This document shows, piece after piece, positions 8,344 to 64,000 of a DNA stretch of 64,000 bases; the first letter of the stretch is position 1, and each line of letters starts with the position of its first letter. Below the pieces are notes generated by a model. It had not been told where the DNA came from. It did no database searches and saw only the letters and a list, made by a program, of their open reading frames with translations. The translations under genes and the position numbers were made by a program. The stretch covers positions 62,001 through 126,000 of the forward strand of contig JAJPJG010000051.1 in the NCBI GenBank assembly GCA_021324395.1, read 5' to 3'. Source of the stretch: Spartobacteria bacterium (GTDB taxonomy: Bacteria; Verrucomicrobiota; Verrucomicrobiia; Chthoniobacterales; Chthoniobacteraceae).

Positions 8344-9717
8344 GTGGCACGGCTTTGCGGGCCATATCACTTCCGCGTGACGATTCCGTTCCGGCCGGAC
8401 GATCCGCTTCCAAAAAATGCGCAGGCTGCGCTCTGGGTTTTAGGCGCGCTGGTGCTCGTCTTTGGCGCGATTGTCGAAATGCGCTCGGCTTTTCTCCACC
8501 GGCGAATGACGGATGCGGACGATTTTTTTCGCGCGGCGTGGGCGATCCGCACCGGCAGCGACATCTACGAAATCACCGACACGAATGGCTGGCACTACAA
8601 TTACCCGCCGCTCTTCGCGCTGCTGCTCACGCCTCTGGCGAATCCGCCGCCTGGCGCGGACCGCAAGGGATTTTTGCCGTATGAAATTTCGGTCGCGATC
8701 TGGTATGCGCTGAGCATCGCGTTTCTCGCGGTCGCGGCGCACTGGCTGGCGTCGGCGTTCGAGCGCGCGGTGCCGCGATTGCGCAGCCGGCGCCATGGCC
8801 GGCAATGGTGGCTGATGCGATTTCTGCCAGTCGCCGTTTGTTTAATTTCCGTTGGCCGCACGCTTTCGCGCGGGCAGTGCAACACACTTGTGCTGGTCCT
8901 ATTCTGCGGAATGATCGCGCTCCTTTTGAGCGGTCGTCGCGCACTTGCAGGCGGCTGTCTCGCCGGCGCAATCTGCATCAAAATCTGGCCCGCATTTTTA
9001 ATCCTGTATCCGGTTTATCGCCGCGATTTTCGTTTCATCGGCGGATGCGTCGCGGGCGTCATTCTGGGTCTGCTCGTCATTCCGTCGCTTGCGCTTGGCA
9101 GCGTGAAAACGATGGCGCAGTTGCAGCATTACGCGCAGGTGACCCTCCTCCCCGGCCTTGGCATTGGCGAAGATCGCTCGCGCGCGGACGAACTCACGAC
9201 CGCGACAGCGACCGACTCGGAGTCGTTTGTCAGCGTATTGCACGCCATCTCTTTTCCGAATGCCGACACGCGTCCGCAGGATGCGCTTCCGTGGGAACGA
9301 GCCACGCATTGGTTCATCGCTGCGATGCTGACAGCGATGACATTTTGGGCTGCAAAAAGCACGCGTGGTGACGTGCTCGGGGAAGCGATTTTACTCGGCG
9401 CGCTCATGGTGCTGATGCTGCCGATCAGTCCTGTTTGCCACGGTCATTACTTCATTTTCGCACTGCCGCTCGTCTCCGCTCTGGCTGCGGAAGCATGGGA
9501 GCGCTGCGGCGAAATCGGCGCCGGACTTGCCACGTTGTTCGTCGCACATTTTGCGCTGCACCTCATTTCGACCTTGCCTGCATTCGCATGGGCGAAAGAA
9601 TTCGGCGTGCCCCTCGTCGCCACCCTCGCTCTCTGGATCGCCGCGCTTGTCGTTTTGCGAAAACGCGCTGCAGCATTTGCAATAGCGCCGGCCCCCGCGC
9701 TGGAGGTTGCAGCATGA
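8344..9717 (+). CDS. GT87-family (DUF2029) membrane glycosyltransferase
   Basis: 457 residues with about ten hydrophobic segments and an N-terminal periplasmic loop ADDFFRAAWAIRTGSDIYE followed by NYPPLFALLLTPLA. This is the layout of GT-C enzymes of family GT87, which use polyprenyl-phosphate sugars outside the inner membrane. GQCNTLVLVLF and KIWPAFLILYPVYRR also fit the family. The first codon is GTG at 8344, and a second in-frame GTG at 8377 is an equally possible start. It follows the helicase by 7 bp and its stop overlaps the ATG of the GT2-YdjC gene, so these genes form one operon. Acceptor and sugar are unknown. Confidence 0.85.
   Translation: MARLCGPYHFRVTIPFRPDDPLPKNAQAALWVLGALVLVFGAIVEMRSAFLHRRMTDADDFFRAAWAIRTGSDIYEITDTNGWHYNYPPLFALLLTPLANPPPGADRKGFLPYEISVAIWYALSIAFLAVAAHWLASAFERAVPRLRSRRHGRQWWLMRFLPVAVCLISVGRTLSRGQCNTLVLVLFCGMIALLLSGRRALAGGCLAGAICIKIWPAFLILYPVYRRDFRFIGGCVAGVILGLLVIPSLALGSVKTMAQLQHYAQVTLLPGLGIGEDRSRADELTTATATDSESFVSVLHAISFPNADTRPQDALPWERATHWFIAAMLTAMTFWAAKSTRGDVLGEAILLGALMVLMLPISPVCHGHYFIFALPLVSALAAEAWERCGEIGAGLATLFVAHFALHLISTLPAFAWAKEFGVPLVATLALWIAALVVLRKRAAAFAIAPAPALEVAA
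9702..9706 (+). promoter_or_regulatory. ribosome binding site deciding the GT2-YdjC start
   Basis: GGAGG placed 7 bp before the ATG at 9714. It fixes this start, although the reading frame stays open for another 93 codons upstream, inside the GT87 gene. Confidence 0.8.
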
Positions 9718-11252
9718 AAATTTCGTTCGTTTATCCGATGTTCAATGAACTCGGAAACATCGAGAAGCTCCTCCGCACGACGCGCGCAATGGCGGAATCA
9801 ATCCCGCTCGATGATTACGAAATTGTCGTCGTTAACGATTGCAGCAGCGACGGGAGCGGCGAAGTCGTGGAAAAAATGCGCGCGGAAATCCCGCGGCTGC
9901 GCGTGCTCCACCACAAGGAAAATCAAAAGCTCGGCGGTGCGCTGAAGACCGGTTTCGCCGCGGCGAGCCTCGACTACGTGCTCTACATGGACTCGGATTT
10001 CCCCGTGTCGTTTGCCGACGTGGAGCGCGTTCTGCGCAATGTGCGCGAGCCGCTCGACATGCTCGTCGGCTATCGCATCGGACGCGCCGAGGGCGTTTAT
10101 CGTGACATGCAATCGTGGGCTTACAACGAACTGCTGCGACGCGTTTTTGACCTGCGCGTGCGCGATGCAAATTTCGCCTTCAAACTTTTCCGTCGAGAAC
10201 TCGCACGCGCGCCGTTGCAATCTAACAGCTCGTTCATCGACGCCGAACTGCTGCTCGAAGCGCAGCGACTCGACTACAAAATTCGCGAGACAGGCTTTCG
10301 CTATCAAGTGCGCCAGGCCGGCAAATCGACGATCGGCGGGCCTCGCGCGATTCCGCCGTTGCTGCGCGATCTGATCCGCTATCGCCGTGAGCGCTGGTGC
10401 AAGCCCGACACGACGCAGCGTTATGTAATCTTTAACGCCGATGATTTCGGCCTTTGCAGCAGCATCAACGCAGGCGTGATCGCCTGTCATCGCGAGGGCG
10501 TCGTGCGATCTGCGAGTCTCATCGTGACCGGTGAAGCGTTCGATGAAGCAGCGGATTACGCGTTGCACAATCCATCGCTCGATCTCGGGCTGCATTTCGC
10601 ATTGTGCGATGGCCGGCCTGTCTGTGGCGGGGATGATGTGTTATCTCTCGTGGAAAACGACGCACGTTTTCCTACGAACTACGCCGCGTTTTTGCGACGT
10701 TATGTGCGCGGGAAAATTTCGCTGCGGGAAATCGAAATGGAATTTCGCGCACAACTCGCGAAGGCGCTCGCGCGCGGGCTTCGCATCAGTCATCTCGACA
10801 GTCACCAGCATTTGCACGCGCTGCCCGGCGTCTTCGAAATCGTGCTCCGTATTGCGGAGGAACACGGCATCCGCGCTGTGCGCAGCCCGCTCGAGCGGCC
10901 GGTTTTTTTCACGAAACGCATCGCACGCACACTGCAGCGTATCGCGCTCGGCAGCGCGTTTCGCGTGTCACGCCGGCAGCTCTCGCGCTCGACGGTGCGC
11001 ACCGCCGATCACTTTTTCGGCGTGATGCATGCTGGTCGTTGGAATCTGCGAAATCTCAGCGCGACGATTCGCGCGCTGCGTCCGGGCGTGACGGAAATCT
11101 GCTGTCATCCGAGCGCGGAGCCGGTCACCGAGTCGGTGCGTCGCTGGGGCTACAATTTCCGCGACGAGCTGGCGGCGCTCACGAGTGCGCGCCTGCGCGA
11201 GAATCTCAATGAGGCGAATATCCGCGTCATTGGTTTCGGCGAATATTTTTAA
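9714..11252 (+). CDS. fused GT2 glycosyltransferase - YdjC-type carbohydrate deacetylase
   Basis: 512 residues with two catalytic domains. Residues 1 to about 225 are a dolichol-phosphate-mannose-synthase-like GT2 domain: FVYPMFNE, VVVNDCSSDGS, the DSD metal motif at 93-95, and DANFAFKLFRRE at 151-162. There are no membrane helices after it. Residues about 236-512 are a YdjC/ChbG-type deacetylase with metal-site motifs NADDFG (241-246), HLDSHQHLH (360-368) and CHP (464-466). The gene lies between two GT87 genes, overlapping the first by 4 bp. The inferred role is to load a sugar on polyprenyl phosphate and remove its N-acyl group before a GT-C enzyme transfers it. Domain calls are firm and the pathway is a proposal. 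Confidence 0.9.
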   Translation: MKISFVYPMFNELGNIEKLLRTTRAMAESIPLDDYEIVVVNDCSSDGSGEVVEKMRAEIPRLRVLHHKENQKLGGALKTGFAAASLDYVLYMDSDFPVSFADVERVLRNVREPLDMLVGYRIGRAEGVYRDMQSWAYNELLRRVFDLRVRDANFAFKLFRRELARAPLQSNSSFIDAELLLEAQRLDYKIRETGFRYQVRQAGKSTIGGPRAIPPLLRDLIRYRRERWCKPDTTQRYVIFNADDFGLCSSINAGVIACHREGVVRSASLIVTGEAFDEAADYALHNPSLDLGLHFALCDGRPVCGGDDVLSLVENDARFPTNYAAFLRRYVRGKISLREIEMEFRAQLAKALARGLRISHLDSHQHLHALPGVFEIVLRIAEEHGIRAVRSPLERPVFFTKRIARTLQRIALGSAFRVSRRQLSRSTVRTADHFFGVMHAGRWNLRNLSATIRALRPGVTEICCHPSAEPVTESVRRWGYNFRDELAALTSARLRENLNEANIRVIGFGEYF

Positions 11253-11261
11253 GATGCGCGC

Positions 11262-12479
11262 GTGAACGAGACGAAGCGGGTGCTGCAACGATTCGATCTG
11301 CCGAAAATCGCGTTCGGAGCATGGCTCATCGCATTTGCCGTCGTCGCGATTCGCGTGCTCGTGCAGGGCGCGGAAAAGCACAGTGTTTATCCGCCGTATA
11401 TGCTCGCGGCGCATCGTTGGCTGGCGGGGCAGGACCTCTACACACCGGACAACCTGAAATTCCGCTACAGCCCGTTGTTTGCCGTAGGTTTTACGCCGTT
11501 CACATACCTGTCCGATCGGCTCGGCGCGATTTTGTGGCGGCTCATCAATGTCGGCGTGTTTGCGATCGGACTGCGCTGGTGCTCGCGAACTCTGCTGCCG
11601 CGCATCGGCGCAAATGCGATGTCGATCTTGTTTTTGATCGCACTGCCGCTGGTTGTGCCGAGTCTGAACAACGGCCAGACAAATCCGCTGATGACCGGAC
11701 TGATCCTCTGCGCGTTTGCCGCACTTGCGCATGAAATGTGGACGTTCTCCGCTGCGCTGCTAGTGCTCGCCATTTTTCTAAAGCTGTATCCGCTCGCCGC
11801 CGCATTGCTGTTGGTTGCGCTTTATCCGAAGCGGCTCGGCTGGCGATTCATCGCGTTGCTGCTAGGCGGCATCGCGCTATCGTTCTGCCTGCAATCGCCT
11901 CCATTTGTCGTGCGGCAATTCGCGGGCTGGTTCGAGTATTTGCGCGACGATCTCCGGCTCGATTTGCCACCGGATGCCGCGTATCGAGACCTGCGGCTAG
12001 TGCTGAATGTGTCCGGATTGCACCCGGACCCGTTGCTGTATTTTGTTTTACAAATGGCCAGCGCCGCCGCGATTGCGATTGCGTGCGTTTACGCAAAGCG
12101 GCGCGGTATTGCGCGCAACGATTTGCTCCTCATCACCTGCTCATTCGCGAGTTGCTGGATGCTGCTGCTCGGGCCTTCAACCGAGTCGTGCACCTACGCG
12201 CTCGCCGCGGCGCCGATCGGCTGGTTTTTTCTGCAAAGCAGCGCACGCCCGCGATTTTACCGCATCACGCTGTGGTCCGCAGCCGCGCTTCTGATCGTCG
12301 GCTTTGTCGGCGCATGGTTTCCATTCGTCACACACGTGCATGCAATCGGTGAACAGCCGCTCGCGATGCTTCTCGTGCTCGGCTGCGCGATTTACGAGCT
12401 GCGATGCGCGCTCGCCGCGGCCGAAAACCGAACGCATTTGGCAACAGACACCGCACCTGCCATCACTTCTTTGCCATGA
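11262..12479 (+). CDS. second GT87-family membrane glycosyltransferase
   Basis: 405 residues starting with GTG, 9 bp after the fusion gene; no in-frame ATG is nearby. The loop YPPYMLAAHRWLAGQDLYT followed by FRYSPLFAVGFTPF matches the first periplasmic loop of GT87 enzymes. NNGQTNPLMTGLIL and FLKLYPLAAALLL follow, with about nine hydrophobic segments in all. It is clearly related in layout to the gene at 8344 but not a recent duplicate. It is probably an inner-membrane, polyprenyl-phosphate-sugar-dependent transferase. Its stop overlaps the start of the amidotransferase gene (ATGA). Confidence 0.85.
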   Translation: MNETKRVLQRFDLPKIAFGAWLIAFAVVAIRVLVQGAEKHSVYPPYMLAAHRWLAGQDLYTPDNLKFRYSPLFAVGFTPFTYLSDRLGAILWRLINVGVFAIGLRWCSRTLLPRIGANAMSILFLIALPLVVPSLNNGQTNPLMTGLILCAFAALAHEMWTFSAALLVLAIFLKLYPLAAALLLVALYPKRLGWRFIALLLGGIALSFCLQSPPFVVRQFAGWFEYLRDDLRLDLPPDAAYRDLRLVLNVSGLHPDPLLYFVLQMASAAAIAIACVYAKRRGIARNDLLLITCSFASCWMLLLGPSTESCTYALAAAPIGWFFLQSSARPRFYRITLWSAAALLIVGFVGAWFPFVTHVHAIGEQPLAMLLVLGCAIYELRCALAAAENRTHLATDTAPAITSLP

Positions 12480-13177
12480 AAATCCACAGCTTTCAGCACG
12501 CGCCGTTTGAAGAACTCGCGGAGATCGAAAACTGGATTCACGACCGCGGCCACACGGTTGCGACGACGCATTTTTACAAGGGCGACAGCACACCGGCGCT
12601 CGACGATGTGGACTCGCTGATCATCCTCGGCGGCGCGATGAATGTTTACGAGTATCGCGCTTATCCGTGGCTGCGCGACGAGAAGCGGTTCATCGAAAAA
12701 TTCATCGAGACGGGAAAGCCGTTGCTAGGCATTTGCCTTGGCGCGCAGCTGATCGCGGACGTGCTCGGCGCGAAGGTGTATCAAAACGCCGAGCTGGAAA
12801 TCGGCTGGTTTCCGGTGCGATTTCACGAGTCGAAAAAAGTGATCGCGCCGCTGGCGAGGTTTCCGCGCGAGCTGACGGCGCTGCACTGGCATGGCGACAC
12901 GTTCGATTTACCGCCCGGCGCAGTCGCGCTGGCGGAGAGCGACGGCTGCAAACACCAGGCGTTTGCCGTCGGCGAAAAAATCATCGGGCTCCAATTTCAT
13001 CTCGAATCGGACGCAGGGACGGTCGCCGCATTTGCCGAGGAATGCCCGGACGAACCCGCGCGTTATATTCAAACACGGCAGCAGATTCTCGCCGGTCAGA
13101 CGCATCTCGAGCAGACGCATCTCGTGTTGCGGCATCTGCTCGATGCGCTGGCAGAGCCGGTCGCCGTCGAGCGTTGA
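12476..13177 (+). CDS. class I glutamine amidotransferase (GMP-synthase-like)
   Basis: 233 residues from the ATG at 12476, overlapping the GT87 stop by 4 bp. The class I triad is visible: nucleophile Cys in LLGICLGAQL, His in GLQFHLES, and the Glu two residues later. SLIILGGAMNVYEY forms the oxyanion region. Stand-alone proteins of this kind are often annotated as GMP synthase glutamine-hydrolysing domain proteins; no synthetase partner is encoded here. Overlap with the glycosyltransferase operon suggests co-expression but does not reveal the amide acceptor. Confidence 0.88.
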   Translation: MKIHSFQHAPFEELAEIENWIHDRGHTVATTHFYKGDSTPALDDVDSLIILGGAMNVYEYRAYPWLRDEKRFIEKFIETGKPLLGICLGAQLIADVLGAKVYQNAELEIGWFPVRFHESKKVIAPLARFPRELTALHWHGDTFDLPPGAVALAESDGCKHQAFAVGEKIIGLQFHLESDAGTVAAFAEECPDEPARYIQTRQQILAGQTHLEQTHLVLRHLLDALAEPVAVER

Positions 13178-62703: not shown

Positions 62704-64000
62704 CTATCGAATCTGCGCAGCTTCGCGAACTGTCGCTCCGTTTTGCGCACACTCCAAAAGCGCTGTGCGGATTTTCTTCGCGACTTTTGCGACGTGTGGT
62801 TTGTAAAGCATCGTCTCATGCACCGCCCCGTCGATGCGGAACAGCTCAAGGTTCGTCGCAAAACCATTCCAGCCACGATCGGCCTTATATTCGTAGCCGT
62901 CGTGCGGATTATCCGCGATGAAGACGAGCACCGGACCGTCGTATTGCTGCGGACGGTAATCCGCCCACGCGCGCTCGCTGACTTCGCGCCCGCGCACGAG
63001 ACGCAAGTCGGCGGAAAGCGGTGCCTTTGCCTGATCTAAAACACGCGCTGCCATTTTGTTTACGCGGCCTTTTTCGCGCGAGACATTGGCAAGCACTTTT
63101 CCAAACGCGCGATCGGCGAGCAGTCGCAGCGTGCCGCCGAGGTTCATGCCATTCGCGAGGCGGCGATTCATCGCGATGCGCTCGCGCAAATTCAAGCGCC
63201 GCGGCGGACGGCCCGGATTGTAGCTGTCGAAAAGCACGATGAGTCCGACCTCCTCGCCTTTCGCGCGAAGCTGCTGCGCCATCTCGTAAGCGACAACGCC
63301 GCCGAGCGAATAGCCGGCGAGATGGTAAGGTCCGCGCCGCTGCACACGCTGGATTTGGTTTATATAAAACGCGGCCATTTCCTCGACGGTCTCGTGCATC
63401 GTTCCGCCTGCAAGCCACGGCGCTTCGAGCGCGAGCAATGGCCGATCAGCGCCGAGATGCTCGCTTAAGGCGCGATAAACAAGCGTTCCACCATCACCGC
63501 CGTGAATGCAGAAAAGCGCTGCTTCACTACCATTTGGCTGAAGTGTAACAAGTGTCGATGGCTCGTCGGCACCATTCTTTTTCTCGTCGAGCAAAGGCGC
63601 GAGCGCCTTGATTGTTGGCGCTCGAAATAGCGTGGAAAGCGGCAGCGCTTTGCCGAACTCGCTCCGAATCTGCACGAACATGCGCATCGCCAAAAGCGAG
63701 TCACCGCCGAGATCGAAAAAATCGTCGTCGATGCCAATGCCGCTGACGTTGAGTTTCTGCTCCCAAATTTTTGCGAGCTTCCGCTCGGCGTCTGTGCGGG
63801 GAGCGCGCGAGATGGTTTTGACCGAATGATGCTGCGCGAAATCGGGCGCAGGCAATGCGCGGCGGTCGAGTTTGCCATTCGGTGATTTCGGCAGCGCCGG
63901 CAAAATGACGACAGCCGATGGCACCATATAATCGGGCAGCGTTTTTCGCAGCGCGGCCAGAATGGTCGCCTTGGACGCGGCGTCGGAATACGGCGCAATC
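62704..64000 (-). CDS. C-terminal end of a non-ribosomal peptide synthetase (A-PCP-TE), partial
   Basis: 432 complete codons, open to the window edge on the 5' side. The first visible residues (IAPYSDAASKATILAALRKTLPDYMVPSA region) are the end of an adenylation domain, with the A10 Lys in SPNGKLDRRALP. A peptidyl carrier domain follows with its phosphopantetheine Ser in DDDFFDLGGDSLLAMRM. The last 240 residues are a type I thioesterase: FCIHGGDGG, nucleophile Ser in LAGYSLGGVVAYEMA, Asp near FIADNPHDGYE, and His in IDGAVHETML. A terminal thioesterase means product release happens here. Product unknown. Confidence 0.93.
   Translation of the reverse strand, partial: IAPYSDAASKATILAALRKTLPDYMVPSAVVILPALPKSPNGKLDRRALPAPDFAQHHSVKTISRAPRTDAERKLAKIWEQKLNVSGIGIDDDFFDLGGDSLLAMRMFVQIRSEFGKALPLSTLFRAPTIKALAPLLDEKKNGADEPSTLVTLQPNGSEAALFCIHGGDGGTLVYRALSEHLGADRPLLALEAPWLAGGTMHETVEEMAAFYINQIQRVQRRGPYHLAGYSLGGVVAYEMAQQLRAKGEEVGLIVLFDSYNPGRPPRRLNLRERIAMNRRLANGMNLGGTLRLLADRAFGKVLANVSREKGRVNKMAARVLDQAKAPLSADLRLVRGREVSERAWADYRPQQYDGPVLVFIADNPHDGYEYKADRGWNGFATNLELFRIDGAVHETMLYKPHVAKVAKKIRTALLECAQNGATVREAAQIR

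Follow-up and report, generated by a model that had tools for sequence, protein, structure and literature searches.

The analysed window, a stretch of 64,000 nucleotides from a Spartobacteria bacterium (contig JAJPJG010000051.1, assembly GCA_021324395.1), encodes a single protein of 512 amino acids in which a GT2 glycosyltransferase domain is joined to a YdjC-type deacetylase domain, between two GT-C proteins of the GT87 family. The fusion is a real gene and, judging from its sequence, its product probably works as a bifunctional enzyme in a pathway of known type, with a new architecture. The best reading of the locus, and a probable one, is a route of the Arn/FlmF2–NaxD kind, leading to a polyprenyl-phosphate-linked hexosamine that a GT-C enzyme would transfer to an acceptor in the envelope.

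The first GT-C gene, GT87a (positions 8344–9717, forward strand, as are the next three genes), encodes a membrane glycosyltransferase of 457 amino acids, and its stop codon shares the tetranucleotide ATGA with the start of the fusion gene (9714–11252), an overlap of 4 bp. After a gap of 9 bp follows GT87b (11262–12479), encoding a GT-C fold protein of 405 amino acids. Pfam assignments and coordinates thus agree with the preliminary description, which had placed the fusion between two GT87 genes with touching or nearly touching ends. Downstream, a gene for a class-I glutamine amidotransferase (12476–13177; PF00117, 82.3 bits) has its ATG overlapping the GT87b stop by 4 bp and is possibly in the same operon as GT87b. 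Upstream, a helicase gene ends 7 bp ahead of GT87a. Given this overlap and this gap, the gene run may exceed 8344–12479. GC content by codon position was codon-like throughout the genes of the run. At the far end of the window, the open reading frame at 62704–63927 looks by eye like an NRPS-like C-terminal part, with a carrier-domain motif and a thioesterase-like stretch.

Pfam analysis of the fusion, which is a single open frame, located PF00535 at residues 4–164 (96.6 bits) and PF04794 (YdjC) at residues 237–499 (222.3 bits), the GT2 part being encoded at 9714–10418 and the deacetylase part at 10419–11252. The DSD motif is found at residues 93–95, NADDFG at 241–246, HLDSHQHLH at 360–368 and CHP at 464–466, a GLH motif is also present in the deacetylase part, and the catalytic residues of both halves were intact in the motif check. 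In the hydropathy scan, no window of 19 residues exceeded 1.11 and no membrane segment was found. The two-domain composition, every motif named for it and the lack of a membrane anchor are therefore as originally proposed.

The GT2 half resembles the polyprenyl-phosphate transferases in sequence and in its predicted structure, a kinship that also suggests its acceptor. A 28-row profile (A3) compared with the PDB gave ArnC as the best match (2.6e-37), followed by DPM synthase (1.5e-29) and GtrB (1.8e-29), and the AlphaFold model of this half (pLDDT 92) had ArnC, DPMS and GtrB as top matches in Foldseek. The models cover the GT2 domain and GT87b, each on its own. With a GT-A fold, a DxD motif and these proteins as the closest in sequence, the domain is of the ArnC/DPM1/GtrB type, and its earlier designation as DPM1-like is well founded, since DPM synthase is among the top three by profile and by fold. 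The C-terminal membrane helices that characterize the ArnC/GtrB subtype were not present in the hydropathy profile of the fusion. ArnC carries such helices and human DPM1 does not, so that the trait is not universal in the wider family.

In the case of the YdjC half, the profile (A4) matched the chitooligosaccharide deacetylase 7vi8 in the PDB (2.9e-40), and residues D10, D11, H61, H131, H133 and H232 (domain numbering) were invariant in the alignment of 19 relatives. Chitin disaccharide deacetylases are among the YdjC relatives. The conserved Asp and His residues, together with the PF04794 score, place it in the YdjC family. The fusion is the only YdjC protein of the genome at E ≤ 1e-20.

In another genus of the same order (g182), the closest relatives of the two halves are encoded as separate, adjacent genes in the order PMT_2 (a GT-C family), GT2 and YdjC. 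Identity to the fusion is about 43% for GT2 and 35–39% for YdjC, and the GT2 and YdjC genes overlap by 4 bp in most copies. Among the g182 genomes, of which at least 20 are listed, 7 contained the pair, and the named copies among loci L073–L083 belong to Verrucomicrobia MAGs. The PMT_2 loop in g182 has an ArnT-like DE motif. The context expected of a NaxD-like deacetylase, encoded with a polyprenyl-phosphate GT2 and a GT-C enzyme, is thus found both in the fusion locus and in the g182 loci. In one g182 copy (G436; L041, 395–1864), YdjC is apparently broken in its N-terminal part beside an intact GT2. In addition, a radical SAM gene, scoring far under the HpnH cut-off, follows the pair in two g182 genomes (L040, 404–1546; L041, 1918–3060).

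Proximity to GT-C genes above background also extends to GT2 relatives in other phyla. A contig scan with a single protein found none of these relatives, which were recovered with an alignment query. Among the relatives outside g182 scoring above 150 bits, a large multi-span gene was located within two genes of GT2 in 14 of 18 loci. Multi-span genes accounted for 24/70 near genes and 8/95 far genes (Fisher p = 3.7e-5), figures to be taken as an estimate, since the neighbours were scored by hydropathy counts on mechanically called ORFs. Pfam identified YfhO, PMT, PMT_2 and GT87 among the multi-span neighbours. Loci L079–L081 have the order YfhO, GT2 and small-multidrug-like protein. Locus L075 (1–3437, Candidatus Zipacnadia) comprises YfhO, a NodB/DUF2334 deacetylase, GT2 and a short four-span gene; in L079 and L080, which are sister loci, the same gene is small-multidrug-like. 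By its predicted gene products, L075 is an independent Arn-like set.

A second GT2–YdjC fusion was found neither in about 680 sampled genomes (289 of the phylum plus 197 and 199 of two orders, few of them shared) nor in 72,556 plasmids, where the search gave 52 records, none spanning 80% of the fusion. The search of viral contigs gave no match, and no paper on a GT2–YdjC fusion was found in the literature. Since the genome searches were samples with few candidates scored per genome, and the phylum was searched at a strict cut-off, a single fusion is not proof of uniqueness. In the proposed search across genomes for the same domain order and its flanking genes, the GT87 flanks thus stand for one fused case and no further fusion came to light. 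A fusion that mostly lacks GT-C neighbours, the contrary outcome, did not appear; because only one fused case was found, this test rests on the unfused relatives.

Both flanking proteins belong to GT87 by PF09594 (92.5 bits for GT87a and 62 bits for GT87b) and have 8 hydrophobic segments each. GT87b is additionally assigned by fold, its model (pLDDT 89.5) having PimE as the top Foldseek match, followed by GPI mannosyltransferase I and ArnT. Sequence searches of the PDB with single GT87 or PMT_2 queries gave no match. In PimE, which uses polyprenyl-phosphate-mannose, D58 is essential (PMC12041525). The first loop of GT87a, the candidate counterpart of the catalytic loop of GT-C enzymes, contains TDADDFF, with Asp57, Asp59 and Asp60 at a position set by a sequence anchor and not by a solved structure. 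In GT87b and 21 aligned relatives, no conserved Asp is found in the first loop, its position being set likewise by a sequence anchor. Since, by this anchor, GT87a keeps the loop Asp and GT87b is without it, GT87a is likelier to be the transferase and GT87b is an uncertain one. Of the two possible transferases proposed earlier, GT87a is thus retained, and GT87b is no longer an equal candidate. The GT87b subfamily may use another catalytic residue. This subfamily (L189–L207) is common in the order and has K174, D243 and E308 invariant. GT87b has many relatives in the order, with paralogs elsewhere in the same genome, whereas no homolog of GT87a at E ≤ 1e-12 was detected in the order (193 further genomes searched). 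Therefore, only gene position links GT87a to the fusion, and no other genome has so far shown this pairing with GT87.

Three other explanations were weighed. An assembly artefact, with two neighbouring genes fused by error in a metagenome-assembled genome, might be suspected, given that g182 holds the same pair unfused with its 4-bp overlap and that the fusion is known from one genome. It is nevertheless extremely unlikely, as one frame runs across both halves and the short linker joining them, which is shorter by a few residues than the g182 GT2 tail, and the YdjC half is left without an in-frame start. From the end of the GT2 fold up to NADDFG, there is no in-frame ATG, GTG or TTG, and the YdjC half could therefore not be produced as a separate intact protein. 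The other two frames are closed by stops at the junction. Regarding function, the locus could serve exopolysaccharide or glycan assembly, with GT2 extending a glycan or glycolipid by HexNAc, YdjC deacetylating the resulting oligosaccharide and the GT87 proteins working separately. The weak matches of the GT2 half to PgaC/IcaA and other non-polyprenyl GT2 models, the soluble chito-oligosaccharide deacetylases among YdjC proteins and the GT87b paralogs elsewhere in the genome are in line with this explanation. It is unlikely, since the best full-length kin of the GT2 half are polyprenyl-phosphate transferases, the GT-C adjacency is recurrent across phyla and no polymerase, export or chain-length genes were recognised by eye near the fusion.

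Since hopanoid genes occur in the genome, a hopanoid role, not considered in the preliminary description, was put to the test as well. The fusion would then replace HpnI and HpnK, with GlcNAc being added to bacteriohopanetetrol and deacetylated to BHT-glucosamine. Squalene-hopene cyclase and HpnH are encoded side by side, HpnK is the best NCBIfam name for the YdjC half, no other YdjC is available in the genome at the threshold given above, and BHT-glucosamine is still made by some bacteria without HpnJ (PMC12583986). This explanation is disfavoured and very unlikely. The YdjC half scored 207.5 bits on TIGR03473, below the cut-off of 232.6, compared with 341–394 bits for ten full-length HpnK proteins (Acidobacteria and one alphaproteobacterial order), and the tree placed the fusion and g182 YdjC proteins outside the HpnK clade (support 99/96) and its larger group (100/99). 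The union of fusion and g182 is weaker (88/61), and the fusion branch is long. HpnJ is absent from the genome, the GT2 half gave no HpnI match up to E = 0.1, and the hopanoid locus, which lies on a different contig, contains neither GT2 nor YdjC. Alphaproteobacteria nearly always carry hpnI, hpnK and hpnJ together or lack all three (PMC12583986). In the alphaproteobacterial order of genome G478, HpnK-type YdjC proteins are present with no adjoining GT2 match. The YdjC half was thus rejected as HpnK by its score and tree position, and the locus as an HpnI/HpnK/HpnJ system by the absent HpnJ and a GT2 half that is not HpnI.

The lipid-linked amino-sugar route, already favoured in the preliminary description, held in the available tests, namely the kinship of GT2, the GT-C adjacency and the unfused PMT_2–GT2–YdjC loci of g182. 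We infer its reactions, substrates and acceptor; domains, fold, residues and gene order are computed. By analogy with ArnC, DPMS and GtrB, the GT2 half would use a nucleotide sugar to attach an N-acetylhexosamine to polyprenyl phosphate at the cytoplasmic face. The YdjC half would then remove the acetyl group from the lipid-linked sugar to give a free amine, as suggested by YdjC/NaxD activity and the gene pairing. A flippase step would move the lipid-linked hexosamine across the membrane (no flippase gene for the route was identified), and a GT-C enzyme, most likely GT87a, would transfer the hexosamine to an envelope acceptor, e.g., lipid A or a surface glycan. Points against the route are the single fused genome, the purely positional link of GT87a, the absence of an identified flippase gene and the chitin disaccharide deacetylases among YdjC relatives. 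LpxC was found in this genome and in 7/7 g182 genomes searched, so that lipid A is available as a candidate acceptor. In Francisella and Acinetobacter, the YdjC protein NaxD removes the acetyl group from undecaprenyl-phosphate-linked GalNAc, and the sugar is then transferred to lipid A (PMC11279074). In an Acinetobacter expression data set, genes annotated as GT39, GT2 and ChbG/HpnK deacetylase have near-consecutive locus tags and are upregulated together (PMC9083411). The step order ArnC–ArnD–ArnT is that of the Arn scheme (PMC10632790). A more specific version, considered a realistic but tentative possibility, is that the fusion acts as a single bifunctional polyprenyl-phosphate N-acetylhexosaminyltransferase/deacetylase, passing its product from domain to domain with no separate NaxD or ArnD and coupled to an amino-sugar-handling GT87.

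Deacetylation on the carrier lipid would place positive charge on the cell envelope; such a step is known from tolerance to antimicrobial peptides. In a fused enzyme, loading and deacetylation would take place on the same lipid intermediate, and one soluble-looking protein could be assayed. The predicted proteins suggest that uncultured Verrucomicrobiota follow the Arn/NaxD logic with other GT-C partners.

The logic of the pathway is already known; the novelty lies in the fusion, its missing membrane helices and the GT87 partners. In FlmF2/NaxD/FlmK of Francisella (NaxD also of Acinetobacter), compared by description, GT2 likewise forms polyprenyl-phosphate-HexNAc, YdjC deacetylates it and GT-C transfers it, but these are separate proteins, whereas the present locus encodes GT2 and YdjC as a single polypeptide, with GT87 neighbours. 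ArnC/ArnD/ArnT/ArnEF share the step order, and ArnC is nearest to the GT2 half in fold and profile, although ArnD is a NodB-type deformylase and not a YdjC protein, and the fusion is without the membrane helices of ArnC. The g182 locus, in which the closest relatives of the two halves lie side by side and overlap, differs in its unfused genes and in PMT_2 as GT-C partner. In CsbB/GtcA/YfhO (PMC7389260), GT2 also charges undecaprenyl phosphate for a GT-C enzyme that uses it outside, and the closest out-of-phylum GT2 relatives of the fusion adjoin YfhO, but that system is without a deacetylase. HpnI/HpnK/HpnJ similarly combine a glycosyltransferase and a YdjC deacetylase to give a lipid-linked glucosamine, a system from which the fusion locus departs in the points given above. 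Finally, PimE shares the GT87 family and fold and a polyprenyl-phosphate-sugar donor, while, by the sequence anchor, a loop Asp is kept in GT87a and not in GT87b, and the substrate here would be a sugar other than mannose.
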